A stretch of DNA of 34,711 bases. Source: Planctomycetota bacterium. GTDB taxonomy: Bacteria > Planctomycetota > Planctomycetia > Pirellulales > Pirellulaceae. Made by a program: the position numbers and the translations under genes. Below are positions 12,627 through 34,388 of this stretch, piece after piece. A model generated the notes under the pieces. The model ran no database searches and was not told the origin of the DNA. It saw only the letters and a list, made by a program, of their open reading frames with translations. Location of the stretch: positions 1-34,711 of the forward strand of contig JAQBZB010000065.1 of NCBI GenBank assembly GCA_027622275.1, written 5' to 3'. Each line of letters opens with the position of its first letter. Position 1 is the first letter of the stretch.

Positions 12627-12705
12627 GTCACTTCCGCCGGAAGTGACCTCCCAGACAGTTCGGCATTCGCCCATGTGCCAAGGTCACGCTCGGCGAGCGT
12701 GACCT
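12625..12705. terminator. Two palindromes between convergent genes; likely bidirectional terminator
   Basis: AGGTCACTTCCG/CGGAAGTGACCT (12625-12649) and AGGTCACGCTCG/CGAGCGTGACCT (12681-12705) are perfect 12-bp inverted repeats with a one-base centre. They share the ends AGGTCAC...GTGACCT and lie exactly between the ends of the operon and of the kinase gene. No T-runs follow, so they may also be copies of a small palindromic repeat family. Confidence 0.5.
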
Positions 12706-12707
12706 AC

Positions 12708-14093
12708 TTAAAACAGCTTCGCCAGAATGAACCCGATCCCCACGCCGACCGTTCCCACGACGACAGCGACGACGGTGATGACGGCGAGTTGGTTTTGACG
12801 TCCGTGCCGTGGCAGCTGAACGAGAGGCAGAGGCGGCGGCAGCGGTCCGGACGAACGGCGTGTCGGCAGTTGTCTCGTCTCTTGGTTCGCCGTGCCGCCG
12901 GACACCGTCCCTTGCGACCACTGGCTCCCACTCTCTTGCCGGCTCGAATCGGACTCTTCCGAATCAACTCGCGACGCGTCGGTGTCTTGCGCGGACTCTT
13001 CCGTGCCGGTTGGCAACGGCGGCGGAGTCCACGGTGACTTCGTCAGCGGTGCCGGGCTGACTCCGACTTCCGTGGCCCAAGGCTCCAGTCTTGCGGCAAC
13101 TTCCGCGGCGGAAGGGATCCGCGACGCGGGGTCTTTCTCCATCATGTCCGCGATGACTTCGACAAACTCTTCCGTGACGTCAGGATTGAATCGCTTCGGA
13201 TGCCAGGGTGTTTCGGCGAGATGGCGTTGCGCCTTGCTGTTCGGAGTGCCGCCTGGGAACGGCACCTTGCCGGTAATTGCATAGTACAGGGTGCAACCCA
13301 GCGAATAGACATCGCTGACGTTGCTGACCTCATGCGGGTTGCGGATCTGCTCTGGCGAGAGGTAATCCGCCGTGCCCACAATCTTGCCCGCGCGCGGATC
13401 GTCGTCGCCTTCGTTCATGAAACCCGCGAGTCCCAGGTCAGACACCTTGGCGACTCCTTCCGGCGTCACCAGGATGTTGCCAGGTTTCACATCGCGATGA
13501 ATGAGGTTGCTTTCATGGGCATATTGGAGCCCGCGGGCCGCTTGCATGATCACGCTGGCGGCTTGTTGCATGGTCAGCGGCCCATCCGATCGAATCAGCC
13601 GCCGCAAGTCCGTTCCCGGCACGAACTCGGTCACCAGATAATGGACGCTGCCATCCTGGCCAGCATCATACGCGCGAACCAGGTTCGGATGATCCAGCTT
13701 GGCCTGTGTCCGTATTTCGCGAGTGAAATTGGCGATTGCTTCGGGAGTCGATTTGTGAACGGGCAGAATCTTGACGGCGGATTCGCGTCCCATGACGTTG
13801 TGAACGGCCTTGAAGACCTGCCCCATGCCTCCTTGGCCGATGAAGTCCGTGACGAGATACGGCCCTAGATTCAGCTTGTTCCGACCGGTCAACATTTGGT
13901 CCGCTTGATAGCGCGTGATCACGCTGGTTTCGACCAGCTTGTTCGCCAAGTTCTCGTCGGACAGCTCGCCTTCGCTGCCAATCTCCGGAGCATCCAGCCG
14001 CAGCAGCTTCTCGGCAACGTCGAGCTGCGATTGCGCGACGAGGCCGCTCAATAATGCGGCGTTGCGGAAGACTGAACGCGTTTTGTTTGGCAC
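12708..14093 (-). CDS. Hanks-type serine/threonine protein kinase with C-terminal membrane anchor
   Basis: A 461-residue kinase that phosphorylates Ser/Thr of unknown partners. Residues 1-70 hold the same helical domain type as the PQQ protein of the neighbouring operon (SDENLANKLVETSVITRYQADQML). Kinase landmarks: Gly loop IGQGGMGQVF (85-94), catalytic Lys in SAVKIL (about 108), HRDVKPGN (199-206), DLG in place of DFG (219-221) and SPE in place of APE (246-248). All catalytic residues are kept, so it should be active. A Pro/Ser-rich linker follows, then one membrane span at the C-terminus (about 434-459). No extracellular sensor domain is present. It converges on the ExbB/ExbD operon. Confidence 0.93.
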   Translation of the reverse strand: MPNKTRSVFRNAALLSGLVAQSQLDVAEKLLRLDAPEIGSEGELSDENLANKLVETSVITRYQADQMLTGRNKLNLGPYLVTDFIGQGGMGQVFKAVHNVMGRESAVKILPVHKSTPEAIANFTREIRTQAKLDHPNLVRAYDAGQDGSVHYLVTEFVPGTDLRRLIRSDGPLTMQQAASVIMQAARGLQYAHESNLIHRDVKPGNILVTPEGVAKVSDLGLAGFMNEGDDDPRAGKIVGTADYLSPEQIRNPHEVSNVSDVYSLGCTLYYAITGKVPFPGGTPNSKAQRHLAETPWHPKRFNPDVTEEFVEVIADMMEKDPASRIPSAAEVAARLEPWATEVGVSPAPLTKSPWTPPPLPTGTEESAQDTDASRVDSEESDSSRQESGSQWSQGTVSGGTANQETRQLPTRRSSGPLPPPLPLVQLPRHGRQNQLAVITVVAVVVGTVGVGIGFILAKLF

Positions 14094-14337
14094 GACTTCG
14101 TCCTGAGAGAGGCACCGGACCGGACAGGAAAGGTGCGAACGGTAGTTATACGATAACGCGTAACCGTCGCCCGCGCCAAGTTACTGGCAAGACGACTACA
14201 AATTTCATTGTAGTTCAGGCCTCGAGTAATCGGGGTTATTGAGGAAAAGTAGGGCAACCGCAGCCATTTCCCGATTGCCGCAAGCCTGATGAGACGCCTG
14301 AGGCGTTGTTCGCCGTAGCACTGCGTGAACGGTAGTT
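14094..14337. other. Intergenic: kinase upstream region
   Basis: This stretch lies upstream of the kinase start. I see no convincing gene. It contains one short palindrome (ACGCCTGAGGCGT near 14293) and probably the kinase promoter, which I cannot place with confidence. Confidence 0.4.
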
Positions 14338-17220: not shown

Positions 17221-17389
17221 CGGGATTATTCATCAGCCGCTTGGCGATAGCTAGCGGTTCTCGTGAACTTTGCTCGTGAACTTTGAGAGAACCGCACGCT
17301 ATCGCGTGGCGGCTGATTTGCACGGTGTTTTGTGCTAGATAGCCGTCACTCGTTTTACAAATGCAGCTTCATGAATACTCCGTGCTAAG
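17221..17389 (+). repeat. Dispersed palindromic element, family 2, copy 1
   Basis: Ends GGGATTATTCAT and the reverse complement ATGAATACTC act as terminal inverted repeats. Inside is a long hairpin built from CAGCCGCTTGGCGATAGC and GCTATCGCGTGGCGGCTG. A 12-bp duplication (CTCGTGAACTTT, twice) marks the loop. The other copy lies inverted at 31774-31955. Confidence 0.75.
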
Positions 17390-17512
17390 GGCCTTCGGCT
17401 CGCCAGGAACCTCGCCCTCACAACTGTGCCGCAAGAACTGCACAGATTGAAAAACTGAACCGCCCTGAGCTTTGGTGGTCGCCCCGTTGAGTCTCACGAC
17501 CGGTGACTCCCG

Positions 17513-18874
17513 TCACTTGGCGAGTTCCAGGCAGATCAGCTTTCCGCCTGACGACCCGTTGTCGCGGAAATAGAACTTACCACTGGATAGCGCGGGGAGC
17601 GATCGGGTGACGTTCGTGCTGATCTCAGCGGAGGCGAGTTCGCGGTAGGAGTCCGAATTGACTTCGGCGAGTCGCAATTTTCCTTCCACGTCAAGTAGCA
17701 CGAGTTGGTCGCCGACGAGAATCGTGTGCGCGACGCCGAAGCCCGGGACGGTCCATTTCACTTTGCCGGTCTTCGCTTCGAAGCAGCGCAGCACGCCGTT
17801 CCGATAGTCTTCGCGGCCGTGCGTTCCATACAGAAAGCCGTCGCGATAAACGCACGTCGAGTATTGGCTCGACATGACGTTGTCGTTCGCCCAGAGTTCC
17901 TTCACACCGTCGCCGTTGATCTGCGACAGATTGGCTCCGACTCCGTAGCTGGAGGAAACGAACAGGTAGTCGTCGAACACCAGCGGCGTGGCACCGTTGA
18001 CGGTCGTTCCGGGTCGGCCAAAGGGGAAGCGGAAACGCACCTTGCCGTTGCTGGGATCGATCGAGACGGCATTCAATCGTGTGACAAACACGGCATGCGT
18101 CTGCCCGCCGACCATCGCCAGAGTGGGAGACGAGTAGCTCGCCGCTTCGTCGGTCGCCTGCCACGCGGTCTGGCCCGTGTCGAGGTCAAAAGCCACGAAT
18201 CCCGCACCGCTTCCGCCGACGTTCACGATCAGTTTCCCTGCCGCCACGATGGGCGTGCTCCCCGCGCCGAAGTAACCTTCGTCGCCGCCGAAATCGCGGT
18301 ACGCTTCACGAGTCCAACGCTTTGCGCCATCGCTCAGGCTGACGCAGTGCAAATCACCCGCCGCTCCGAAGACGTAGACGCGATCGCCGTGGATCAAGGG
18401 AACGCAGCGCGGCCCGAAATCTGGATTGACCGTGCCGACATAGGTCGCCGGGAAGTCCGTCTTCCAAACCGATTTGCCCGTTGCGGCGTCCAGTGCTTCC
18501 ACGCGTTCGGCATCACGATCGCGATGAAACACGATGACTCGATTGCCAACGACCGCCGGCCCGGCAAAGCCTTGACCGACCGGGTAGCTCCACACTTGTT
18601 TCGGTCCCGATGCCGGCCACTTCGGAATGACGGGTTCGTCCTGCGCCTGACCGCTGCGAGACGGCCCAAGAATCTGAGGCCAATCGCCCGCTGAGCATTC
18701 TGATGAGGGAGCCAAGAGCAAGGCCAGGGAGAACAGAACCGGCGCAGCGGCGATGAGCCTTGTACGATGGCCTTCCAAGGCCGTCGAATCCGGCAGATCG
18801 ACGGCCTTGGAAGGCCATCGTACGACGTTGAATGAGCGTTCTGTGCTTCGTCGATCGAATCGAGCGGATGTCAT
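17513..18874 (-). CDS. Secreted PQQ-type beta-propeller repeat protein
   Basis: A 453-residue protein with a signal region (RLIAAAPVLFSLALLLAPSSECSA) followed at once by GDWPQILGPSRSGQ, the usual mature start of planctomycete PQQ-like (outer-membrane assembly BamB-like) proteins. Repeated blades carry ALDAATGKSVWKTDFP, SDGAKRWTREAY and FEAKTGKVKWTVPG. It is predicted to act in the periplasm; whether it binds PQQ is unknown. The start is uncertain: ATG 18874 places a 62-bp palindrome inside the coding region before the hydrophobic core, while a TTG within the palindrome would give a shorter n-region. A frame open to 18964 exists, but the extra residues look non-coding. Confidence 0.82.
   Translation of the reverse strand: MTSARFDRRSTERSFNVVRWPSKAVDLPDSTALEGHRTRLIAAAPVLFSLALLLAPSSECSAGDWPQILGPSRSGQAQDEPVIPKWPASGPKQVWSYPVGQGFAGPAVVGNRVIVFHRDRDAERVEALDAATGKSVWKTDFPATYVGTVNPDFGPRCVPLIHGDRVYVFGAAGDLHCVSLSDGAKRWTREAYRDFGGDEGYFGAGSTPIVAAGKLIVNVGGSGAGFVAFDLDTGQTAWQATDEAASYSSPTLAMVGGQTHAVFVTRLNAVSIDPSNGKVRFRFPFGRPGTTVNGATPLVFDDYLFVSSSYGVGANLSQINGDGVKELWANDNVMSSQYSTCVYRDGFLYGTHGREDYRNGVLRCFEAKTGKVKWTVPGFGVAHTILVGDQLVLLDVEGKLRLAEVNSDSYRELASAEISTNVTRSLPALSSGKFYFRDNGSSGGKLICLELAK
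18762..18823. repeat. Perfect 26-bp inverted repeat in the 5' end of the PQQ gene
   Basis: GTACGATGGCCTTCCAAGGC... (18762-18787) is perfectly repeated in inverse at 18798-18823, around a 10-base spacer. It covers the region between the upstream ATG and the signal-peptide core of the minus-strand gene and could hide its ribosome site in a hairpin. Confidence 0.9.
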
Positions 18875-24270: not shown

Positions 24271-24653
24271 TAGTTCTCCTCAGGCATAGGTCGGGGACGA
24301 TTCACTCACACTAGACGAAAATGCCGTCAACGGATAGGACGGTTCGTCGGCACTACGGTTCGTCGGCACCACCGCCCCGGTCCCGAATGGCCTGGACTTA
24401 AGCGGTTTGTGCTGTAATTCTTATTTCGTTCCTAACATCGCAGGAAGAGGGGGGTGACTTGCGTCGTGGATGACGGCGGGTGACAATTTCATCGGTCGAG
24501 AGCGGCTTGGGATGCGGTCGCCAAACCGTCGGCTGGCAACGGATCCCTGCAATGTTATCGGAAAAGACGCTGTCACGTTTCAGCGTTAAGTGATTTAGAG
24601 TTAGAATATCAGTCGACAAGTGATAGACAGGGTTTCCACATCAGGACCACGTC
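24271..24653. other. Intergenic region between divergent rpsU and radical SAM genes
   Basis: No gene seen. It should hold promoters in both directions. Two 16-bp tandem copies of ACGGTTCGTCGGCAC(T/C) occur at 24339-24370. A possible -10 (TAGAAT, 24602-24607) lies about 45 bp before the radical SAM start, with only a weak -35. Confidence 0.4.
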
Positions 24654-26123
24654 ATGAAGTTACAGTCACCGGGTTCCGTGCTTCTCATATCCTGCTACGA
24701 GCTGGGCCATCAGCCGCTCGGCATTGCCTTGCCGATTGGATTTCTCCGGCGGGCGGGATTCGAACCGGACGCGATGGACATTGCCGTCGAGGACTTCGAC
24801 GCCGCGAAAGCTGCCCAGGCTGACTTCGTTGGAATTTGCGTTCCCATGCACACGGCCCTGCGATTGGGAGTCCGCGTCGCCCAGCGGGTTCGCGAACTCA
24901 ATCCTGACTGCCACATTTGTTTTTATGGTATCTATGCGTCATTGAATTCCGAATACCTGCTGGATCATGGTGCCGATTCGTGTATTGGCGGTGAATACGA
25001 ACAGCCCTTGGTTGCTTTAGTCGAGTCGATCGCAGCGGGCACGACCGGCGACGTCGAAGGCGTGGCTCGGCGCGGCAAAGCCGCGTTGCCGGTATTGCAG
25101 AAGCTCTCGTTCGCGATTCCGGAGCGGAACGCGCTCCCTTCGCTCGACAAGTACGCGCACCTCGAACACGAAGGCAGTTCTCGAACGGCCGGTTATGTCG
25201 AAGCCAGTCGCGGCTGCTTGCATCTGTGTACGCACTGTCCGATTCCACCGGTGTATGGCGGGCGCTTCTTCATCGTGCCGCAGGAAGTTGTCTTGGAAGA
25301 CATCCGCCGACAAGTCCAGGCTGGCGCGACACACATCTCGTTCGGAGATCCGGATTTCCTGAACGGCCCCAAGCATTCGCTGCGCATCGTGCGGGCGATG
25401 CACGACGAGTTCCCGTCGCTGACCTACGACTTTACCGCCAAGGTCGAACATCTGCTGAACCGCGGCGAGGATATGCCCGAGTTCGCAGCAGCCGGCTGCT
25501 TGTTCATCATCACGGCGGTCGAATCATTGAGCGATCGGGTACTCACGATTCTCGACAAGCAACACACGCGCGAAGACGTCGTCAACGCCATCAAGTATGT
25601 CCGCGACGCCGGCATCGCGCCGCGTCCGACCTGGGTGACCTTCACGCCCTGGACCACGCTCGAAGACTTCTTGGAAGTGCTGGAGTTTATCGAAGAGAAC
25701 GGGATGATCGACAACATTGATCCCGTGCAATACTCGGTCCGCCTGCTGATTCCTCCCGGCTCTTGGCTGGCCGATCACGAGGAGACACTGCCGCATCGCG
25801 GGCCGTTGGATGAAGCGGCGTTCACCTACCGCTGGACCCATCCCGATCCGCGCATGGATCAACTGCAAAAAGATGTGGCACGGCTGGTCGAGCAGGATGC
25901 CCAAGCGGAAGAGGATACAGCCGCGACTTTTTATCGCATCAAGGACTTGGCCTACGGCAGGCAGCCTGTCGAACTGGCCTGTTCGCTGCCAGCGGATCGC
26001 CAGCGGGCTCCGCGGATGTCCGAATCGTGGTTCTGCTGAGCGGAGCCGACCGAGGGTCAGTTAGACCCTCTTAACAAGCTCGCTGGCGCTGCGGTGGGAC
26101 GCGACTCGCAAACGGGATTCTAA
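24654..26123 (+). CDS. B12-binding-type radical SAM selenoprotein with C-U-A-E-P tail (TGA at 26037 read as Sec)
   Basis: A 489-residue protein if TGA 26037-26039 is Sec (residue 462); conventional calling stops at 461. The N-terminal 130 residues look like a cobalamin-binding Rossmann domain. The radical SAM cluster motif is GCLHLCTHC (Cys 188, 192, 195). The tail reads WFC-U-AEP, matching what I know as the CUAEP/CCAEP-tail radical SAM (seleno)protein family. After it come 24 more residues and TAA, immediately before the next ATG (26124). A SECIS-like hairpin lies at 26052-26070. It probably catalyses a radical modification, substrate unknown, and heads the selenoprotein array with the DUF169 gene. 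Confidence 0.9.
26043..26081 (+). promoter_or_regulatory. Candidate bacterial SECIS of the radical SAM gene
   Basis: GAGGGTC (26052-26058), loop AGTTA, GACCCTC (26064-26070): a perfect 7-bp stem whose pentaloop has G at position 2. The loop starts 20 nt after the TGA. An outer pair GAGC/GCTC (26043-26046, 26078-26081) extends it past an internal loop. This fits the spacing and loop rule of bacterial SECIS models. Confidence 0.7.
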
Positions 26124-26813
26124 ATGAACACGGCTACCGCGATCGAAGATTTACTCGGCTTACAGCGCCGCCCCGTCGCCGTCAAATTCCAGGACGCCGC
26201 GCCGGAAGGCATCTCGCGGATCGACCAGTCCGCCGTCTCAGGCTGTACCTACTGGAAACTCGCTGCCGAGGGCCGCACGTTTTACACCGAAGCGTCCGAC
26301 CATTTCGGCTGCCCGATCGGTGCCCATACCCACGGCATCGACTTGCCCGAAGCGACCGCCAAGGAATTGGAAGGCATGGTCGGCACGATGGTCGAGCTGC
26401 AATACATTGCGATGGAGGAAGTGCCGGGCATTCCGCAGCTCGCCGAGGAATTCGGCGTGGCCATTTACGCACCGCTCGCCGAGGCGACGTTCGAGCCCGA
26501 TGCGATTCTCGTTTCCGGTAACGCCAAACAAATGATGCTGCTCGCCGAGTCGGCCCACGCGGCGGGCGTTTCGAGCGACACTTCGATGGTCGGCCGGCCG
26601 ACTTGCGCCGCGATTCCCGCCGTCATGCAATCGGGAACAACGGCGACGAATCTGGGCTGCATCGGCAATCGCGTCTACACCGGGCTCGCGGACGATGAAC
26701 TGTACTTCATCATCGCCGGGCCGCGGCTGGGTGATATCGTCGAAAAGCTGACGACCATTTTGAATGCCAACAACGCGTTAGAAGCGTTCCACCAGGGACG
26801 CATGACCAACTAG
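26124..26813 (+). CDS. DUF169-family protein
   Basis: A 229-residue cytoplasmic protein of the DUF169 family: LGLQRRPVAVKF at the start, SGCTYWKLAAEGRTFYTEAS, HFGCPIGAHTHGI, the central PLAEATFEPDAILVSGN and a C-terminal GRPTCAAIPAV...NLGCIGNR. Several conserved Cys could bind metal or a cofactor; members often accompany B12/radical enzymes and formate or methyl metabolism, but no reaction is established here. ATG 26124 abuts the TAA of the radical SAM gene without a gap, which supports reading that gene through its TGA. No TGA interrupts it. Confidence 0.82.
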   Translation: MNTATAIEDLLGLQRRPVAVKFQDAAPEGISRIDQSAVSGCTYWKLAAEGRTFYTEASDHFGCPIGAHTHGIDLPEATAKELEGMVGTMVELQYIAMEEVPGIPQLAEEFGVAIYAPLAEATFEPDAILVSGNAKQMMLLAESAHAAGVSSDTSMVGRPTCAAIPAVMQSGTTATNLGCIGNRVYTGLADDELYFIIAGPRLGDIVEKLTTILNANNALEAFHQGRMTN

Positions 26814-26830
26814 TTTATGAGGTGTGATCT

Positions 26831-27421
26831 ATGAAAATGCGACTCGGTCTTGCCGTCGCGGCGGTCTCGCTGCTGTTTGCGTCATCCGCCAATGCCCAAG
26901 TGGTCGGCGGAATCATGACGGTCTCCGGTGCGGAGATGCACTGATGAGCAGGTGTGGCGTGTGACGCCACTGCACGTCTGTATGACGTGGACGAAGATTC
27001 GGTGGTCTTTGTGAAGCTTCAAAAGACGGAGAAGTACGATCTAGGCACGGTGACATTTCGCGCCCGCAAGGACAAACTGATCGACCTCGACCAACTGCAC
27101 GAAAGTATCTGGGCGACCAGACTGTCGAGCGGCACACGCAGCGGCTTGGTCAGTCTCGAAGTTACGGTGATCGGCGAAGTCGTCGCCGCGGAAGACAAAA
27201 CGGTCCTGAAAGTGTCGGGTTCGGACAAAGAGTTTGTTCTCGGCAAACATTCCGACGAGCAACACGCGGCTGCTTTCGCCAAGTTGCAGTCGAGTGCCGG
27301 TAAATCGGTGAAGCTGACCGGCATCATCGACGACTACGTGGGGCGGTGGCCGAACGTGCTGAAGACGCAACCGACCACTCCGCGGCGTGTCTTGGTGACC
27401 GGTGTTGAACTTGCCGAATGA
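26831..27421 (+). CDS. Secreted selenoprotein with a Sec-Sec pair (TGA TGA at 26942-26947)
   Basis: A protein of 196 residues if both TGAs are Sec. A signal peptide (LGLAVAAVSLLFASSANA) leads into VSGAEMH-U-U-AGVACDATARL. The two TGAs sit where a Cys-Cys metal motif is expected before an Ala-rich helix, as in HMA-like folds. The first 37 codons alone would make only a signal peptide plus 15 residues, and the downstream 155-codon frame alone would lack any start site; the two are exactly in frame. A second beta-rich domain (about 90-195) follows. ATG 26831 has GAGGTG 8 nt upstream. The hairpin at 26948-26973 could serve both TGAs. Confidence 0.8.
26948..26973 (+). promoter_or_regulatory. Candidate SECIS of the Sec-Sec gene
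   Basis: GTGGCGT (26954-26960), loop GTG, ACGCCAC (26964-26970), extended by GCA/TGC with a bulge of GGT on the 5' side. The bulge includes a U, as in the E. coli fdhF element. The loop lies 13 and 16 nt after the two TGAs, short but near the accepted range. Confidence 0.6.
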
Positions 27422-27452
27422 CTGTTGAAGACAACAATGGCGGAACCTATTG

Positions 27453-27824
27453 ATGATTGAACCTCACGCTAATCACCCAGAGCATCCCGACACGTTGCCG
27501 GAGACCGGTTGTGAAGCAGCACCTGCGAGAGCCGGCGGCGGAAAGACGATGACGGTGTTCGGCGCGTTGTTCGGCGCTGCCGCAGCCGTCCCTACGTGAA
27601 CCACCGCTGGCTTTCTTGCCCTGTTCGGGTTAGCAGGGGGTTCAGCAGTTTCGATCGCGGGTTGGATGTCGCCCATCCTGATTGGAGTGACCATCGCTGC
27701 CGTGGGAAGATCCCATTACGTGCTGTACGTTCTCAAACGCGGCAATCTGGCTTCGATCGTCATCACGTGGCTGGTGACCTTGTTCGTCATCGGGTTCTGG
27801 TCGTGGCATTGGCTGGCAAAGTAG
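27453..27824 (+). CDS. Small membrane selenoprotein, MerC/MerT-like (TGA at 27597)
   Basis: A 123-residue protein if TGA 27597-27599 is Sec (residue 49). A hydrophilic start of about 30 residues is followed by three to four membrane segments: MTVFGALFGAAAAVPT-U-TTAGFLALFGLAGG, WMSPILIGVTIAAVG and IVITWLVTLFVIGFW, with YVLYVLKRGN between. Sec stands where small mercury transporters of the MerC/MerT/MerF type place Cys next to Pro in the first span. The gene lies 31 bp after the previous stop and 9 bp before the decarboxylase-like gene. Its SECIS candidate is weaker than others. Confidence 0.75.
27606..27646 (+). promoter_or_regulatory. Possible SECIS of the small membrane selenoprotein gene
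   Basis: CCCTG (27619-27623) pairs with CAGGG (27634-27638) around a 10-nt loop, with an outer GCTG/CAGC pair. The loop starts 25 nt after the TGA. The stem is short and the loop begins TT, so it does not meet the usual G rule. Confidence 0.35.
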
Positions 27825-27833
27825 ACTTCTCTG

Positions 27834-29102
27834 ATGAACAACTCCTTTGAGAACCGCGAGCGTCCGGACGAAGCGACGGTGTTTGCGCTGCGCGAGATCG
27901 TCCGTCGCCACGGCACGCCGGCCTACGCCTTTGACGTGCGGCGATTAGTTGCTCAAGTGGAAAAGCTGCGCAGCTATCTGCCGCCCGAGGTGGAACTTCT
28001 CTACTCGTTGAAGGCCAACGCCTCACTCGGAATCTGCGACGTGCTGGCGGACTGCGGCATCGGTGCCGACGTTGCTTCGGCCGGCGAATTCGCGACCGCT
28101 CTCGAAGCGGGCTTCCCCGCCAACCGCATCTTCGTTGCTGGACCATTCAAGTTGCCGGAGACGATCGCCCGGTTGCACAACACGCCGGAAGCGATCGTTT
28201 CGATCGATTCGCCGAGCGAACTCCAGCGTCTGTCCGACGTGCATGCTCCCAATTCCGCCGTACTTCGTCTGCGGCCCGATTTTGGTTCTTGCGCGGTTGT
28301 ACCCGCCGGCAGCGAATCTCGGTTTGGCTTCACTTGTGACGACTTGCAACGTTGCCGCGACTTTCTGCCGTCGTGCAATGTCGACGTGATCGGCTTTCAC
28401 GTGTTTGCCGGGTCGCAGGTGTTGGACGCGGACAAATTGAACGAACATCTCCGCCGCGCGTTGGACTTGTCGCTGCGAGCCGCGGAAACACTGGCCATCG
28501 AGCCAACCTATATCAACCTCGGCGGAGGCTTTGGAATTCCTTACGCGGCTGATGGCGAAGAGCTTGATCTCGCTCGCGTCGGCGATGAACTAGCCAGTTT
28601 GGTCGCGCGCGCGGCACCCGCGCGGATCGTGCTAGAACTCGGTCGTTACTTCGTCGCCGAAGCCGGCTGGTATTTGACCTCGGTCGTCGGACACCAGACG
28701 TTTCAAGGACGTCCGGCGGTGATCGTCGATGGAGGCGTTCACCAGCGGGCCGACATGTGCGGGCTTCATTTGCGAAAGAAGCAGTGCCCGCCGTTGGTCC
28801 TCAATGCCGATTCCTCAACGCTCACTCCGACCGACGTGCTGGGATGCCTCAGCCTGCCCGACGATGTGATGTTGGAAGCCAGTCCGCTGCCGAAGTTGTC
28901 GTCCGGCGACATCCTGGCGTTCGGCAACGCGGGAGCTTACGGCATGTGGTCGTCGCCGGCGATCTTTCATGGCAGCCCCTTGCCCGCCGAAGCCGCCTTC
29001 GACGGAGCGGAGATTCACTTGATGCGCGAGCGCAAGCCGGCACAGAGCATCCTGGAAGATCAACTTCACGTCGTTACAAAGACTGCACCCGCACCCGCGT
29101 AG
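27834..29102 (+). CDS. Fold-type III PLP enzyme, diaminopimelate/ornithine decarboxylase-like
   Basis: A 422-residue protein of the Orn/DAP/Arg decarboxylase group 2. PLP-binding Lys is in LLYSLKANAS (about residue 62). GFHVFAGSQ, YINLGGGFGIPY and LELGRYFV (for EPGR) form the phosphate and barrel motifs, and FGNAGAYG the C-terminal motif. The Cys that acts from the partner subunit (CES or C-T-P-x-D-V-L) is replaced by Leu (STLTPTDVLG, codon CTC). So it may have altered reaction specificity or bind PLP without decarboxylating. It lies inside the selenoprotein array, 9 bp downstream of one and 6 bp before the SUMF-like gene. Confidence 0.85.
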   Translation: MNNSFENRERPDEATVFALREIVRRHGTPAYAFDVRRLVAQVEKLRSYLPPEVELLYSLKANASLGICDVLADCGIGADVASAGEFATALEAGFPANRIFVAGPFKLPETIARLHNTPEAIVSIDSPSELQRLSDVHAPNSAVLRLRPDFGSCAVVPAGSESRFGFTCDDLQRCRDFLPSCNVDVIGFHVFAGSQVLDADKLNEHLRRALDLSLRAAETLAIEPTYINLGGGFGIPYAADGEELDLARVGDELASLVARAAPARIVLELGRYFVAEAGWYLTSVVGHQTFQGRPAVIVDGGVHQRADMCGLHLRKKQCPPLVLNADSSTLTPTDVLGCLSLPDDVMLEASPLPKLSSGDILAFGNAGAYGMWSSPAIFHGSPLPAEAAFDGAEIHLMRERKPAQSILEDQLHVVTKTAPAPA

Positions 29103-29108
29103 GCAACC

Positions 29109-29996
29109 ATGAATCGTCAACGAACCGCCGCACTAATACTGATCGTCGTCCTCGCCGGATCGCGCCTCGCGCGTTCCGATCAGCCCGAGGTCAGCACGAA
29201 CCCGGTGATCACCAACTCGGTAGGCCTGAAGCTGGCGCACATTCCCGCCGGGACGTTCGTCATGGGATCGCCCCGTAGCGAAGCCGAACGGGATGACAAG
29301 GAAGAACGCCATGAGGTGACCATCACGAAGCCATTCTATCTCGGCGTGTACGAAGTGACTCAGGCGGAATACGTCAAGGTGATGCGAGGGACGGGATTGC
29401 CGGACGATCGTTCGACGTTTAAGGGGGACAATCTCCCCGCCGAGAACGTGGAATGGAGAGTGACCCAGATATTCTGCGAGCAGCTGTCGGCGCGGCCCGA
29501 GGAAGTCGCCGCGAAACGCAAGTATCGCCTGCCGACCGAAGCCGAATGGGAATACGCTTGCCGAGCTGGTTCATCAACCGCGTTTCACTTTGGCGATTCG
29601 TTGTCGTCGGATCAGGCGAACTTCAATGGTGAGTTTCCGGCGGGGGACGGCGAACAGGGAAAGTACCTGCGGACGACAGTGGCGGTTGGTTCCTATCCGC
29701 CGAACGCGTTTGGCTTGTATGACATGCATGGCAATGTCGCCGAGTGGTGTGCGGATTGGTACGACCCCGAGTACTATTTGAATAGCCCCGAGGAAGATCC
29801 GCTCGGCCCGCCGTTTGGCATTGTCGACACGAAGTTCACTAACAACGGCAATGAAAACTTCTTTGTCGTGATTCGTGGCGGCTGTTGGGTAGATGAAGGA
29901 AGAGGCTGCCGTGCCGCTTATCGATATCGTGCCATGCCGAATACACAATACCGCTTGATCGGCTTCCGAGTCGCATGCGGCGTGGAAGGGGAATGA
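29109..29996 (+). CDS. Exported SUMF/formylglycine-enzyme-fold protein
   Basis: A 295-residue protein with a signal peptide (ALILIVVLAGSRLARS). The SUMF fold is clear: HIPAGTFVMGSP, KPFYLGVYEVTQAEYVKVM, YRLPTEAEWEYACRAG, FGLYDMHGNVAEWCADWYD and VIRGGCWVDEGRGCRAAYR. Aligning with human FGE, the second active-site Cys is kept (the C of GRGC), the first is Asp, and an additional Cys replaces Ser after GG. It therefore may not be a formylglycine enzyme in the strict sense. Its TGA overlaps the ATG of the next selenoprotein gene (ATGA), implying co-translation. Confidence 0.85.
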   Translation: MNRQRTAALILIVVLAGSRLARSDQPEVSTNPVITNSVGLKLAHIPAGTFVMGSPRSEAERDDKEERHEVTITKPFYLGVYEVTQAEYVKVMRGTGLPDDRSTFKGDNLPAENVEWRVTQIFCEQLSARPEEVAAKRKYRLPTEAEWEYACRAGSSTAFHFGDSLSSDQANFNGEFPAGDGEQGKYLRTTVAVGSYPPNAFGLYDMHGNVAEWCADWYDPEYYLNSPEEDPLGPPFGIVDTKFTNNGNENFFVVIRGGCWVDEGRGCRAAYRYRAMPNTQYRLIGFRVACGVEGE

Positions 29997-30385
29997 CCTT
30001 GGTGATGATTCAGCGAGTCAAAATGATCGGCGTCGCGGCCTTGTTGCTGGCTGGCTGTAACGCATCGGTGCCAACGACCGTTGCTCCGTCGAAAGCTCAG
30101 CCGGAACCATCCAGCCCGACGGACGTTACGCTGTATCTGGCGGGAATGAACGAGAGCATGCAGATCTTGTGAGGCGACTGACCGAATAAGGTCAAACAGG
30201 CTCTGTTAGAGCTTGACGGTGTCCAGTCGGTCGAAGACGAGTGGGAACGGGAACTGGAAGCGGAGGAAGACCTCGATCTGTTGTTTATCACGTACAATTC
30301 GAAGCGGATCACGCTTGAACAGCTGACAGCCGCAATCGCCGAGCACGGATTCGAAGCACAAGTCCGAGATGAAGCGAACGAGTAA
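29993..30385 (+). CDS. HMA-like lipoprotein selenoprotein with U-G-D-U in place of CxxC (TGA at 30170 and 30179)
   Basis: A 130-residue protein if both TGAs are Sec (residues 60 and 63). The lipobox LLLAGC at residues 16-21 anchors it to a membrane from the periplasmic side. The domain reads MQIL-U-GD-U-PNKVKQALLELDGVQSV...LFITYNSKRITLEQLTAAIAEHGF, a complete heavy-metal-associated (MerP/CopZ-type) beta-alpha-beta fold. Both Sec replace exactly the two metal-binding Cys. It ends at TAA 30383. ATG 29993 overlaps the upstream TGA, with GGAAGGGG before it. A strong hairpin follows within the coding region. Confidence 0.85.
30191..30217 (+). promoter_or_regulatory. Candidate SECIS of the U-G-D-U lipoprotein gene
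   Basis: GTCAA (30191-30195), a 4-base bulge, GCTCT, loop GTT, AGAGC, TTGAC (30213-30217). The two perfect 5-bp helices pair around a 5'-side bulge, and the loop begins with G. The loop starts 24 nt after the second TGA and 33 nt after the first, both within the accepted range, so a single hairpin could serve both. Confidence 0.65.
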
Positions 30386-30441
30386 GTAGTGTGGGACGCC
30401 GGGCCCCGGCGTCATTCGGTAGTTAAAGACTAGGTTGCCTC

Positions 30442-31179
30442 ATGTCCAACGAACCCATTCCCAACGTAACTCCGGCCGCCGATTGCTGAGCATCGACGAC
30501 CGCCGCGTCGCCGTGTGCGACGCAACAACGACCGCTCGACGAGAACGTCTCGTCCGGCCGCAGCGAACGCTTCGCCAGCTTCGGGGCGCTGCTGTCGGCC
30601 TTTATCGCCTCGAGCTGATGTTGGCTGCCGCCCTTGTTGATTTTAGGCGGCGTCTCCGGTGCGGGGATGACGGCAGTGATGCAAGAGTACCGGCCGATCT
30701 TCATGGTCGTGACGTTCGCATTTTTGGGACTCGCGTTCTACTTGACCTATCGCCCGCGACGTACTCCGGCGACAGCAGCTGACAACAGCGGCCAGTCGGC
30801 GACAATTACCGCCAGCCCCCGTTCAAACATCATGACCTTCAACAGGGTTCTGCTGTGGGGAGTGACCGTCGTCGCGGTCGTCTTCTTATTCTTTCCACAA
30901 GCCTTCACGAGTTTCGACACGGCCAACGACGAGTTCACCGCCGACATGGATCGGACAGTGATCACGATCGAAGGCATGACGTGACACACGTGAGCGCCGA
31001 AGGCCGAAGCGGCCCTCAGATCAGCACCGGGTGTGCTGGCAGTCAAAGTGGACTTCGCAACGAAACAAGCCACGATCGGCACCAAAGTCGGCAGCGCCTT
31101 GCCGTCCGAAGAAATCCTCGCCGCCCTAAAGTCGATCGGATACCGCGGCAAAATCGTCGACTCGCCCCCGGTCAGATGA
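30442..31179 (+). CDS. MerT-MerP-like fusion selenoprotein (TGA at 30487, 30616, 30982, 30991)
   Basis: A 245-residue protein if four TGAs are Sec (residues 16, 59, 181, 184). A short N-terminal part reads ADC-U-A. A MerT-like part has FGALLSAFIASS-U-CWLPPLLILGG in the first span (Cys-Cys in MerT), two more spans (FMVVTFAFLGLAFYL, VLLWGVTVVAVVFLFF), then a MerP-like HMA domain VITIEGMT-U-HT-U-APKAEAALRSAPGVLAVKV...LAALKSIGYRG. In MerT/MerP these Cys pick up Hg(II) and pass it across the inner membrane; Sec binds Hg more tightly. The final TGA at 31177 follows the domain end and is taken as the real stop. No merR or merA is in the window. Confidence 0.85.
30505..30523 (+). promoter_or_regulatory. 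Candidate SECIS for the first TGA of the MerT-MerP-like gene
   Basis: GCGTCGC, loop CGTGT, GCGACGC: a perfect 7-bp stem, G at loop position 2, loop starting 23 nt after TGA 30487-30489. It meets the stem, loop and spacing expectations of bacterial SECIS. Confidence 0.6.
30627..30651 (+). promoter_or_regulatory. Possible SECIS for the second TGA (S-S-U-C)
   Basis: GCCGCC (30627-30632) pairs perfectly with GGCGGC (30646-30651) around a 13-nt loop starting 15 nt after TGA 30616-30618. The loop is long and begins CT, so this is the weaker candidate. Confidence 0.35.
31002..31014 (+). promoter_or_regulatory. Candidate SECIS for the U-H-T-U pair
   Basis: GGCCG, loop AAG, CGGCC: a perfect 5-bp stem. 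Opening the last pair gives loop GAAGC starting with G. The loop lies 13 nt after TGA 30991 and about 22 nt after TGA 30982. Confidence 0.45.
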
Positions 31180-31306
31180 TGTTGTTGGGGAAACTGTCGT
31201 CGTGCTGAGAACGTCGATAGTTTTCTGACTTGGCAGTGTGCGACCGTCCCGGCACGGTTACATTGGTACGCAGACGATTTCAGATGCAGCTTCTCGAATC
31301 AGTGCA

Positions 31307-31753
31307 ATGCGAAAAATGAATCAGAAAGAACGAATACCAGTTCCCGCGTGGTACTGGGTGATCCCTGTTCTGGCGCTGCTGTGGAATTTGATGGGATGTG
31401 CCGTCTTTCTCACGGAGGTTTTCGCACAGGAGGCGATGATGGAGTCCATGACCGAGGAACAGAAGGAATGGGCTCGCGCGATTCCTCGCTGGATCTACTT
31501 TGTCTACGCAGTCGCCGTGAGCACCGGCGTGGCGGGAAGCATTGGTCTGTTCATGCGGAAGACGTGGTCCGTTCCGTTGTTCGCTATTTGCGTTGTCGCC
31601 GTGATCGTCCAAATGGTTTACACCATCTTGATCGCCGGTGGCTTACAGGCCATGGGACCATCCGGCTTAGTGATGCCAGTGTTGGTCATCGTCTTCGCGA
31701 GTGCTCTGCTTTGGTTCTCGTGGTTTGCCAAAGGCAAGAGCTGGCTGGCCTAA
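31307..31753 (+). CDS. Four-span membrane protein of unknown function
   Basis: A 148-residue protein with four hydrophobic segments: WYWVIPVLALLWNLMGCAVF, WIYFVYAVAVSTGVAGSIGLF, SVPLFAICVVAVIVQMVYTI and GLVMPVLVIVFASALLWFSW. Between TM1 and TM2 is a Met/Glu-rich loop (QEAMMESMTEEQKEWARAIP). Similar proteins are usually annotated as hypothetical. No ribosome site decides between ATG 31307 and ATG 31316; upstream in-frame codons look non-coding. It follows the MerT-MerP-like gene by 127 bp in the same direction. Confidence 0.7.
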   Translation: MRKMNQKERIPVPAWYWVIPVLALLWNLMGCAVFLTEVFAQEAMMESMTEEQKEWARAIPRWIYFVYAVAVSTGVAGSIGLFMRKTWSVPLFAICVVAVIVQMVYTILIAGGLQAMGPSGLVMPVLVIVFASALLWFSWFAKGKSWLA

Positions 31754-31773
31754 ACTTCGACACACCGTTGAGA

Positions 31774-31955
31774 GTTAGCCCGGATTATTCATGAACCGGT
31801 CGGCATTCTTTGGAACATGCGTTTGTAAAAGGAGTTGCGGCCACCTTGCCCAATTCGCCGCGCAATTCAGCCGCCACGCGATAGCGTGCGGTTCTCTCGA
31901 AGTTCACGAAAACCGCAGGCTATCGCCAAGCGGCTGACGAATAATCCGGGTTAGC
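31774..31955 (-). repeat. Dispersed palindromic element, family 2, copy 2
   Basis: 182 bp with terminal inverted repeats GTTAGCCCGGATTATTCAT and its near-complement ATAATCCGGGTTAGC. The inner hairpin uses CAGCCGCCACGCGATAGCG and CTATCGCCAAGCGGCTG. It is inverted relative to copy 1 at 17221. It separates the selenoprotein array from the convergent TlpA gene and may end transcription from both sides. Confidence 0.8.
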
Positions 31956-32059
31956 GAACCAGTGTGTGTGTCAACAACTCGTGGCGCGTTAGACACGCCG
32001 CAAAAAAAAGCGTCCGTCTTCAAACACGCGCGGCGCGAAAGTCGCCGCGTACCCATCGG

Positions 32060-33148
32060 TTACCTCTTTTCCAACTCAGCGAGCAAGCGACCGATGGCGG
32101 CGTCGACTTCTTCGGGCGGGAGGTTCTTGTAGCGGATGACGCCATTCGCATCCAGAATGTGGATCGCGGGGCGTTCTTGGATTTGCCAGGTGGTGTGAAT
32201 CGGGCCTTCGACGTTGCCTTCGTCCCACCAGCTGCGCCAGGTGATCTGCTCGTCGACCATCGTCTGCTTGAGGGCTTCGCGATCTTCGTCGCTGTTGACG
32301 CCAAGGAGAACGAAGGGCTTGTCGGCTAACTGTTTCACGAGCGACCGCTCGTGCGGGTAGAGTTCCCGGCAGGGGCCTCACCAATGGCCCCAAAAGCACA
32401 ACATCACCACCTTGCCACGATAGTCGCTCAGCTTCATCGGCTTGCCAAAAACGTCTTCGCCTTCGATCTCGGGAGCAACCCGGCCGACCGATAGATGACG
32501 GATGGCAAACAACGCCCGTTCGGCGACCTTGCCCAGCGTGGTGTCTTGAGCGGTTACATCTGGGAAGGACTTCAACATCGTCTCGTAAGCTTGCTCGCGC
32601 AGCTTCGCGAGTTCGTCAGGCTTCAGCGACGCCAGATGCTTTCCATAATCCTTGCCGTAGTACTGCACTACGCGGGGTGCCAAGTCGGGCGCCGCCCGCA
32701 ATTGGTCGACGACGATTGCTTCGCTATCCAGCAGCAGCGCGAGATAGTAGCAGGCTTGAGCTTTCACATCGTCGTGAGGACCCTTGTCTAACAGCGCGCG
32801 GAGCAGCTTCTCTGCGGCCAGCGAACGGGAGCGGGCAATGTCTCCACATGCCGACCCAAGTTTCTCGCTGTCGACATGATTGGCTGTCAACAGCTCCAAT
32901 GCCTTTGTCGTTTCGGAGCGGCCACGGACGTTTTCGACGATCCAGAGCAGCGCGTCGGCTGCGGCCGGGTCTTTCGGATGCTCCTCCGCCAAGGCGAGAA
33001 ACCGTTTGGCAAACACGGTCGCGCCGCCTTCTTGCTCGTATTGATCGACCAGCACCTTGAACTGTTTGGAGGCTGGCGACGGCGAGTCCTCGGCGTGTGC
33101 CGGGTAGGTCGCGGCAAGTGTGACGAGGAAAAGGAAAACTACTCGCAT
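32060..33148 (-). CDS. TlpA-type thioredoxin-fold selenoprotein with W-U-G-P-C active site (TGA at 32380-32378)
   Basis: A 362-residue exported protein if the TGA is Sec (residue 257). Signal peptide MRVVFLFLVTLAATYPAHA; a helical, repeat-like region (about 25-225); then a TlpA/AhpC-like domain: RVAPEIEGEDVFGKPMKLSDYRGKVVMLCFWGHW-U-GPCRELYPHERSL, and later QERPAIHILDANGVIRY with cis-Pro. Sec takes the place of the attacking Cys of WCGPC. ATG 33148 has AGGAAG about 8 nt upstream and lies 19 bp after the peroxidase stop, so the two are one operon. Conventional calling would give a protein cut at the active site. Confidence 0.9.
32336..32353 (-). promoter_or_regulatory. Candidate SECIS of the W-U-G-P-C gene
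   Basis: On the coding strand CACGAGC, loop GGTC, GCTCGTG: a perfect 7-bp stem starting 24 nt after the TGA, with the loop 32 nt after it. The GGUC loop is the same as in the well-studied E. coli fdhF element. Confidence 0.75.
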
Positions 33149-33167
33149 GATGACATTCTTCCTTTCA

Positions 33168-34388
33168 TCAATCGGCACGTTGTACAAATGGATCGGAGAA
33201 ACGAGGGTCGGCCAGCAGTGATTCGTCTGTCAAGGTTTTCAAAAACGCGACAAGTGCTGACTTCTGCGTCGGAGTCAAACGAAACCCGGATGTGCTCGTG
33301 GCGTCGATGGGCTCTTCGTTGAAGGCCAATTCCAAGTTTACGTGCGGATGAACGCCATCGCTGTAATGCTCGACGACTCGTTCCAACGTCTTGAATCGTC
33401 CATCGTGCATATAGGGCGCGGTCAGGGCCACGTTGCGCAACGACGAGGCTTTGAACTTGCCGTCGTTGCTGGGTGTGAAGGGATCGTTCGGCGGCAGGCC
33501 GCGCGCTCCCAAGCCTTGATCGACGTAATACAAGTCGAGTCCGGTGTTGAATGACTTCGGCATGCTGAACGTTGGCGGGACGTGGCAGTGCGCGCAGCCG
33601 ATTTCGCCGACTCCATCCACACCGTTGATGAACAGCGACTTGCCGAGGTTCTCTTTGGCGGTAAAGTCCTTGAAGTCCGCCGAGTAGTCATCGCCGCCGG
33701 TCGCCGCGGCGGCGCGGTCGAAGCGCGAGTCGAACGAGACCATCGATCGCATGAACTGCGCGACCGCCTTCGAGATTCCATCGCACGTGACTTTTCGCGA
33801 AGCGAACGCCGCTTCGAATAGCGGTGGATAGTAAGGCAGCTGTTGCAGCTTGTTCTCCAACGCCGGCAACTCCATCCCCATCTCGACTTTGTCTTGAATC
33901 GGCATCAGGACCTGCGCTTCGAGCGTGGGGGCTCGCTCGTCCCAGAAGAAGCCCGGATGCGCTCCGCGTAGTACTGTATAACGCAGATTCACCAGGCTCA
34001 TGGCGTTGCGGTTGGTGTAGCCGTATTCAAAACCTCGGCTGAACTGGCGCGGGTCCGCGAACGCCTGCTCTTGCAGATGGCATGACGCACAGGCGATCGT
34101 GTCGTTCTTGGAGAGCTGCCGATCGTAGAACAGCACTCTGCCCAACGACGCACCGGCGTCCGTGATGGGATTGTCCACCGGCGTGTTGTCCATGCTTTGC
34201 AGCGCCGACACATCGATATGACTCGGCAGTTTATCGATGGCGTAGCGATAGGGCTTCGACGGCAGCAGCGGCACGTCGCTGCGCCCGGCTGTCTCACGGA
34301 GCACGATCGGTTCGTCGGATCTCACGTCTCTGCATACGAGCGACGTCAGCAGCAACATACCGATGGCCAGAGTTCTTCCGCCGGACAT
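33168..34388 (-). CDS. Di-haem cytochrome c peroxidase / MauG-family protein
   Basis: A 406-residue exported protein. A signal peptide (LAIGMLLLTSLVCRDVRS) precedes two c-type haem sites, CASCH (about residue 100) and CAHCH (about 265), with family segments GRVLFYDRQLSKNDTIAC, GFFWDERAPTLEAQVLMPI, FFINGVDG-like, YMHDGRFKTLERVVEHY and LVAFLKTLTDE. Peroxidases of this kind reduce H2O2 with electrons from cytochrome c; MauG-type members oxidise protein side chains. It lies upstream of, and in an operon with, the W-U-G-P-C thioredoxin, which could maintain its haem cysteines or act in the same redox chain. Confidence 0.92.
   Translation of the reverse strand: MSGGRTLAIGMLLLTSLVCRDVRSDEPIVLRETAGRSDVPLLPSKPYRYAIDKLPSHIDVSALQSMDNTPVDNPITDAGASLGRVLFYDRQLSKNDTIACASCHLQEQAFADPRQFSRGFEYGYTNRNAMSLVNLRYTVLRGAHPGFFWDERAPTLEAQVLMPIQDKVEMGMELPALENKLQQLPYYPPLFEAAFASRKVTCDGISKAVAQFMRSMVSFDSRFDRAAAATGGDDYSADFKDFTAKENLGKSLFINGVDGVGEIGCAHCHVPPTFSMPKSFNTGLDLYYVDQGLGARGLPPNDPFTPSNDGKFKASSLRNVALTAPYMHDGRFKTLERVVEHYSDGVHPHVNLELAFNEEPIDATSTSGFRLTPTQKSALVAFLKTLTDESLLADPRFSDPFVQRAD

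Follow-up and report, generated by a model that had tools for sequence, protein, structure and literature searches.

Clustered selenoproteins in the Sao neighbourhoods, which Haft and Gwadz are said to have described in 2023, have reportedly been inferred to handle organometals or metalloids. Selenocysteine (Sec) itself is usually seen as a redox residue. Some of its metal-related forms are already catalogued: MerT-type and UxxU metal-binding selenoproteins are listed in Table 1 of a 2026 inventory (PMC13188914, in excerpt), and a radical S-adenosylmethionine (SAM) protein with a CUAEP tail is a curated NCBIfam family. In the table of that inventory neither NF040546, NF045683 nor a UU motif appears. 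According to the inventory, the vast majority of its 119 listed families contain a single Sec, and a small minority contain two or three. Excerpts of two further papers report Sec genes and selenoproteins in planctomycetes (PMC4807772) and propose that ArsL forms an As-C bond by placing a SAM-derived 3-amino-3-carboxypropyl group on As(III) (PMC8552651). Here we analyse the whole stretch of 34,711 nt that constitutes contig JAQBZB010000065.1 of Planctomycetota bacterium (assembly GCA_027622275.1), referred to as the window, in which six genes at 24654-33148 carry eleven in-frame TGA codons. In this cluster Sec would stand repeatedly at metal-ligand positions along an apparent route from transport to enzyme; the product of gene H would contain four Sec, and that of gene C two Sec side by side.

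In-frame UGA codons as predicted selenocysteine codons

The source assembly comprises 9.78 Mb in 555 contigs with an estimated completeness of 96.2%, the window being its contig C261. Eight genes run in one direction between 24654 and 31179, spaced by 0-56 nt or overlapping by 4 nt, in the order radical SAM, DUF169, C, D, pyridoxal phosphate (PLP)-dependent decarboxylase-like, FGE/SUMF-like, G and H; a TlpA-like gene is convergent to this operon. All of the six genes and eleven in-frame TGA codons on which the original prediction was built were located, in five of the eight operon genes and in the TlpA-like gene, and the DUF169, PLP and SUMF genes are free of them. Judging from sequence, and at a probability that we put above 0.97, the cluster is a selenoprotein operon whose UGA codons are read as Sec by the organism's own SelA, SelB, SelD and tRNA-Sec.

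The complete Sec machinery was found in the same genome, as the original prediction had suggested to check. SelA (567.8 bits, cut-off 267.9), SelB (344.2, cut-off 242.25) and SelD (276.5, cut-off 125) are all over their cut-offs, and a tRNA-Sec with the anticodon UCA reaches 67 bits against a cut-off of 47. The SelD sequence (C340:23790-24704) lies within an open frame of 770 amino acids (aa) and may be part of a fusion, the SelD model having 311 positions.

Comparison with related loci was possible for the five operon genes, the TlpA-like gene being matched to family models only. In locus L068, from a Planctomycetota metagenome-assembled genome (MAG) with a radical SAM protein of 91% identity, TGA is retained at all 10 testable sites against a background of 1029 identical codons among 1868 others compared (55%). 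In the more distant locus L075, from a groundwater planctomycete MAG, it is retained at 6/6 sites, with 365 of 1384 other codons identical (26%). Multiplying per-gene codon identities by hand gives chance probabilities of about 1.5e-3 for L068 and 7e-5 for L075. Downstream of the first TGA, the ratio of nonsynonymous to synonymous substitution rates (dN/dS) between window and L068 is 0.15 for C, 0.17 for D, 0.24 for G and 0.25 for H; the 27-codon tail of the radical SAM gene is looser (0.51).

The standard code splits these six genes, which speaks for ordinary stops, pseudogenes or sequencing errors. Against such explanations stand the presence of these TGAs in independently assembled MAGs as well, purifying selection downstream of them, the interchange with Cys, the covariation of a SECIS-like (Sec insertion sequence) hairpin and the full Sec machinery; we therefore reject them and give them practically no weight. 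As regards sequencing errors, their occurrence at identical codons of an independent MAG makes this origin very unlikely. A general recoding of TGA in this organism, for example as Trp or Cys, would account for read-through in six neighbouring genes. However, TGA seems to serve as the stop codon of genes C and H, past which no resemblance to the protein sequence of L068 is found, and the Sec machinery is a dedicated one. On these grounds general recoding was rejected as well, its probability being negligible.

The claim that the TGAs occupy Cys positions could be followed for eight of the eleven sites. At five sites, one in the radical SAM gene and four in gene H, homologues with Cys were observed directly, and three more, two in G and one in the TlpA-like gene, fall inside matched HMA and thioredoxin-type domains, for which a CxxC motif is typical. 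For genes C (two sites) and D (one site) no Cys-type homologue was seen. In the radical SAM tail, U was found in 12 of 14 loci and C in the other two, a Nitrospira MAG and a Polyangiaceae MAG; Thermomicrobium roseum, in addition to these loci, has U as well. Three of the Sec sites of gene H correspond to Cys in 9/9 aligned loci of Cys-type relatives, and the N-terminal one in 8/9, which are all that reach this site. Throughout the five operon genes, homologues have either TGA or Cys at these sites and no other stops. Four of the six genes have family matches that continue across their TGAs (radical SAM, G with HMA, H with HMA and MerT, TlpA-like with AhpC-TSA); for C and D, Pfam gave no match. 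Wherever the family is clear, the predicted Sec is located at a metal-gripping or redox position.

Taken together, the selenoprotein island is confirmed as an observation and supported in its interpretation at the sequence level, and none of the contrary findings named beforehand, such as missing Sec machinery or true stops in homologues, was encountered.

SECIS-like hairpins

The strongest RNA element was detected in the radical SAM gene, where a hairpin with an AGUU-type apical loop begins 12 nt after the UGA. It is present in 13/13 Sec-type members, which derive from Planctomycetota, Poribacteria, Nitrospinota, KSB1, an unclassified ODZ bacterium and T. roseum, and absent in both Cys-type members examined (L073 and the partial L074), which were kept out of the Sec-type alignment and used as contrast. 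In one fixed register, 86.8% of the cells of the 7-pair stem are paired, 12 cells are changed on both sides and the covariation score is 0.352; none of 500 shuffles was as high in any of these three measures, and fewer pairs form when the partner strand is shifted. If the loop length (4 or 5 nt) is chosen for each sequence by best pairing, 11 of the 13 Sec-type sequences have 6/6 pairs and the other two 5/6, whereas the Cys-type genes have 1 and 2 of 6 pairs and the loop AATT, not AGTT. The GU in the loop presumably resembles that of the Escherichia coli fdhF SECIS.

Support at the remaining sites is graded. Folding energies at 6/11 sites (radical SAM, both of C, D, the fourth of H and TlpA) belong to the lowest 7% of 1168 in-gene windows. 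A scan for the GU-loop motif placed the radical SAM gene, both sites of C, D, the second TGA of G and the first of H in the top 3% of 2824 in-frame windows and found no such hairpin at the second, third and fourth sites of H or at the first TGA of G. The two TGAs of G are separated by 9 nt and may be served by a single hairpin, which is the same in L068; in L075 the motif scan recovers it with a changed stem, and the free fold of that stretch is different. Among the relatives, the top 3% also includes C, D and G of L068 and G of L075. The prediction that hairpins follow the TGAs is thus very well borne out for the radical SAM gene and plausible, with fair support, for C, D, G, the first site of H and TlpA, but weak for the second and third sites of H, and for the fourth it stands by energy and without a GU-loop hairpin. 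Rfam searches gave nothing over gathering thresholds, neither in L068, L075, L061 and L062 nor at 24300-33400 of the window, where three matches at E 0.6-3.1 support neither side.

Some results weigh against the assignment of Sec. Two of the five measures of the shuffle test are not above shuffles (pairs with two-sided changes, 385/500; further pair types, 500/500). The second and third sites of H are without a clear hairpin, and the scores of C and D in L075 are poor, with 0.21 and 0.13 of the background as good; the first site of H in L068 is outside the top 3% (0.06). SelA is over its cut-off in 9/11 other genomes with the U-type radical SAM protein and not in G061 and G395, where assembly gaps are possible. 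Since SelA is widespread in the phylum anyway (68/99 sampled genomes), its co-occurrence with CUAEP proteins was set aside as weak support. Among the C-type genomes it is over cut-off in that of L074 and not in that of L073.

Layout of the gene cluster

The coordinates of all features are collected in Table 1. Gene order is conserved in L068, which has radical SAM-C-D-PLP-SUMF-G-H as in the window and agrees with the expectation of a common order in other planctomycetes except for the missing DUF169. In L075 most island genes recur in a rearranged order. In two additional redoxin/HEAT-repeat genes of this locus (12179-14116 and 14229 onward), in-frame TGAs form UU and UxxU motifs, and a second D-like copy has adjacent TGAs (PWUUVL, 17230-17523).

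Table 1. Predicted features of the selenoprotein gene cluster (positions in the window)
Feature	Position	Strand	Remarks
Radical SAM selenoprotein, CUAEP tail	24654..26123	+	489 aa, predicted Sec at codon 462; NF040546 691 bits
Radical SAM Sec UGA (WFC-U-AEP)	26037..26039	+	U 12/14 loci, C 2/14
Radical SAM SECIS-like hairpin, apical loop AGUUA	26052..26070	+	covarying stem in Sec-type members
DUF169 protein	26124..26813	+	PF02596 113.9 bits
Gene C, predicted HMA-like and OB-like domains	26831..27421	+	adjacent predicted Sec (MHUUAG) 26942-26947 (TGAs at 26942, 26945)
Gene D, short MerT-like membrane protein	27453..27824	+	predicted Sec (VPTUTTAG) at 27597; weak MerT match
PLP-dependent decarboxylase-like enzyme	27834..29102	+	PF02784 137.8 bits
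FGE/SUMF-like protein, TGA stop	29109..29996	+	PF03781 156.6 bits; signal peptide by eye
Gene G, HMA-domain protein	29993..30385	+	predicted Sec (UGDU) at 30170, 30179; lipoprotein-like N-terminus by eye; chosen start, overlaps SUMF stop (ATGA)
Gene G hairpin, loop GUU	30197..30214	+	3' of both G Sec codons; also in L068
Gene H, MerTP-like fusion (MerT + HMA)	30442..31179	+	predicted Sec at 30487, 30616, 30982, 30991; end taken as TGA
TlpA-like thioredoxin-fold protein	32060..33148	-	predicted Sec (HWUGPC) at 32378-32380; AhpC-TSA 62.6 bits

The AhpC-TSA match of the TlpA-like gene spans its TGA in Pfam, and tblastn gave no match to this gene on the 15 loci searched. Elsewhere in the window, a long inverted repeat with arms of about 35 bases (31867-31937) lies downstream of a small membrane-protein gene near 31316-31753; miRNA models match it at chance level, simply owing to its hairpin shape.

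The radical SAM protein and its likeness to ArsL

The radical SAM protein is a full member of NF040546, the family with the CUAEP/CCAEP tail (691.1 bits, cut-off 500), and contains the domains PF04055 (radical SAM) and PF02310 (B12-binding). Its AlphaFold2 (AF2) model has a mean confidence (pLDDT) of 87, and the nearest solved folds are AprD4, OxsB, MgmA and TsrM. The family is over cut-off in 6/392 sampled genomes of the phylum including its own, with one TGA in all six. A scan of 84,980 species, one genome each, with short peptide patterns from one protein, and hence for close relatives only, yielded eight loci. All are from MAGs, labelled Planctomycetota (2), Poribacteria, Nitrospinota, KSB1, Nitrospira, Polyangiaceae and 'bacterium ODZ_NOB7a'.

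The next-best NCBIfam match is ArsL (NF040542, 337.7 bits). Homology extends over about 81% of the query, and identities to ArsL/RCCLKC proteins are 34.5-38.5% among the nine such matches listed; two of these whose sequences were inspected also have a vicinal CC near the C-terminus, comparable to the Cys-Sec of our protein. The tails read ...FKRCCLKC in the ArsL type and ...SWFCUAEP in the CUAEP type, the latter having Sec in the tail and a vicinal pair that is preceded by some 40 additional residues.

In T. roseum, a named culture, the CUAEP gene on the megaplasmid NC_011961.1 (L077 8953-10389) is annotated with a coding sequence that ends exactly at the Sec UGA, and both the tail and the SECIS-like hairpin continue past the annotated end. 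By its sequence, this annotation seems to be truncated. SelA was not found on the plasmid record.

Mer-like and HMA-like proteins

Gene C has, like gene D, no Pfam match, and its TGATGA is retained in L068 and L075. Among the 392 genomes of the phylum it was found in its own genome only, to which L068 and L075 are to be added. Its product is probably exported, the N-terminus being judged by eye. The best of five AF2 models, computed from 3 sequences, predicts a beta-alpha-beta-beta-alpha start with UU opening the first helix, followed by an OB-like barrel (pLDDT 68, five models 42-68). This predicted placement of UU at the start of the first helix would be as in HMA domains. A profile search of the PDB gave weak matches only (best E 0.015).

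The MerT match of gene D is weak (20.6 bits, cut-off 130) and its TGA is retained in both related loci, as are the TGAs of gene G, which matches HMA with 28.4 bits (threshold 24.8). Gene H is over gathering for MerT (PF02411, 49.2 bits) and HMA (PF00403, 50 bits) and reaches 87.4 bits against the NCBIfam MerTP model (cut-off 180). Its first Sec precedes the matched MerT domain, and all four TGAs are retained in L068.

Relatives of gene H occur in 18 other genomes of the 392, with no in-frame TGA in the match and in one case (G056) with an internal TAG. Nine of these loci were aligned and four fetched with wider context, and in 4/4 of the latter a MerR-family regulator adjoins the relative. In L091 this is followed by an HMA gene, over the cut-off of CopZ_AFE_1862 and below that of MerP, and by MerA (500 bits, cut-off 454). 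The Cys relatives beside MerR-family regulators, and once MerA, support a role in metal import. With this the thiophilic-metal reading of the original prediction gained ground in part. In L090 (4405-5940) and L091 (4711-6252), from other planctomycetes, the Cys-type relatives are long MerTP fusions with an N-terminal CopZ-type iron-sulphur domain, and both adjoin MerR-family regulators.

Neighbourhoods of the CUAEP protein

The partners of the CUAEP protein differ from locus to locus. From its neighbourhoods, 61 open reading frames (ORFs) were gathered and 20 of them scanned with Pfam, a set that does not include other neighbours in L068, L071 and L073. The PLP enzyme, whose matches to TIGR03099 and LysA are below cut-off, and the SUMF-like protein are retained in L068 and L075. 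DUF169 occurs at the radical SAM loci of the window, L061, L073 and L075, and a search of a plasmid collection for it gave no match. A paper on the genes of selenium metabolism also lists a DUF169 gene in a table of its section on YedE, a possible second hint of an association of DUF169 with selenium (PMC5322559, in excerpt).

NifU or Fe-S_biosyn (HesB-type) genes near the radical SAM gene in L061, L064, L069 and L070 are a hint that the CUAEP enzyme may require a cluster or sulphur. An ATP-grasp gene of the amino-acid-ligase type follows one to three genes after it in L061, L062 and L064, the ligases of L061 and L062 being 51% identical. A distantly similar ATP-grasp gene (29% over 227 columns) accompanies an ArsL-like gene on a Priestia plasmid, which also encodes an arsinothricin acetyltransferase, an arsenic transporter and regulators of the ArsR family.

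Proposed function

The cluster may encode a line for the capture, import and conversion of a thiophilic metal or metalloid. The proteins C (UU) and G (UxxU), probably located outside the inner membrane, would bind the ion, and the MerT-like proteins D and H would carry it inward. In the cytosol, the radical SAM protein would hold the ion via its vicinal Cys-Sec tail and, by analogy with ArsL, attach a SAM-derived group to it. The PLP enzyme would then act on an amino-acid product, with which the ATP-grasp ligase neighbours fit, and the thioredoxin-like protein would keep the selenols reduced. To this whole chain, Sec-based import of a soft ion combined with ArsL-like conversion, we assign by analogy roughly even odds. 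Candidate substrates are Hg, As, Sb, Se, Te or another element, mercury being only the best-known cargo of Mer proteins. A narrower proposal is a dedicated selenium-dependent pathway, in which Sec-bearing Mer-like proteins import the metal or metalloid and a Sec-tailed, ArsL-related radical SAM enzyme makes a carbon-metal(loid) compound of the amino-acid type, with the selenolate as a handle throughout. This we put forward tentatively; if true, it would extend organometal chemistry beyond arsinothricin.

A number of observations weigh against the functional chain. The radical SAM protein is below the ArsL cut-off (337.7 vs 450 bits) and is without RCCLKC, its tail being WFCUAEP. No arsenic genes were found among the 20 neighbour ORFs scanned with Pfam or the 18 annotated T. 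roseum features. The fold of gene C is predicted at low confidence, and Foldseek found no solved structure for it at E 0.001. DUF169 was not found on the L068 contig. The MerR-family regulators beside the H relatives score below the TIGR02051 cut-off (105-112 vs 151 bits), a zinc-responsive model is slightly better for 2/4 of them and L092 has a heavy-metal P-type ATPase, so that Hg is not singled out. Mer-like genes of the window type accompany the radical SAM gene in only three of the 14 loci searched (window, L068 and L075), which span 6.5-20 kb and would miss more distant genes, and the link between import and radical SAM chemistry may be a local one.

This last observation also speaks for Sec-based metal tolerance that involves no new bond chemistry, where the Mer- and thioredoxin-like selenoproteins would bind, move and reduce the metal and the radical SAM and PLP enzymes would belong to an unrelated natural-product or cofactor pathway on the same transcript. 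In line with this, only one (G020) of the 18 other genomes with H relatives is also over the CUAEP cut-off, and MerA is over cut-off in none of the three island genomes (best 378-388 vs 454 bits). On the other hand, the gene order kept in L068 and the recurrence of most genes, rearranged, in L075 argue for one function. We consider tolerance of this kind possible, yet doubtful.

The presence of a TlpA-like WUGPC protein in the window and of UU and UxxU redoxins within the L075 island could instead point to a periplasmic thiol/selenol redox or oxidative-stress system not concerned with metals. Five of the 11 Sec sites, however, are in matched HMA or MerT domains (two in G, three in H), and the Cys relatives of H occur in metal-regulated and once mer-type loci; we regard a pure redox role as quite improbable. 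If, in the import and conversion line proposed above, the radical SAM enzyme performs ArsL-like chemistry on a Sec-held metal(loid), its products would represent organometal natural products of a new class, and the question of why cells bear the cost of Sec for binding metals could be tested directly.

Comparison with known systems

Literature searches found no description of the operon as a unit, of the UU HMA/OB-like protein, of a four-Sec MerTP fusion or of the UU/UxxU redoxins, and no paper with 'CUAEP' or 'RCCLKC'. A function of NF040546, its SECIS covariation and its Sec-rich Mer-like neighbourhood were likewise not found in the searchable literature, and none of the papers listed for selenoproteins, MerT, MerP and planctomycetes is an evident match to the cluster. 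The view that the unit was undescribed holds to this extent. Its components are partly known, the radical SAM protein being a curated NCBIfam family and MerT-type Sec and UxxU proteins being inventoried (PMC13188914, in excerpt). The unit is probably, though not certainly, new.

By score and by its C-U-AEP tail, the radical SAM protein belongs to NF040546. None of the ten window proteins scanned matched ars families, save the ArsL match of the radical SAM protein itself, MerA was not among them, and none of them matched the Sao families (SaoB/C/L/P/T/X) at E 0.1. The likeness to mer operons lies in gene H with MerT and HMA, gene G with HMA and gene D with its weak MerT match; the cluster differs from them in the predicted replacement of ligand Cys by Sec, four times in H, and in that the island contains no gene of the MerR or MerA type. 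With the MerT/CopZ fusion-like heavy metal transport selenoprotein NF045683 (57.6 vs 375 bits) and the UxxU metal-binding (seleno)protein NF041115 (29.7 and 37.9 vs 95 bits), it shares the idea of placing Sec where MerT and HMA domains bind metal. The Sao neighbourhoods resemble it as selenoprotein clusters inferred to act on organometals or metalloids, the kind of role that we propose here.

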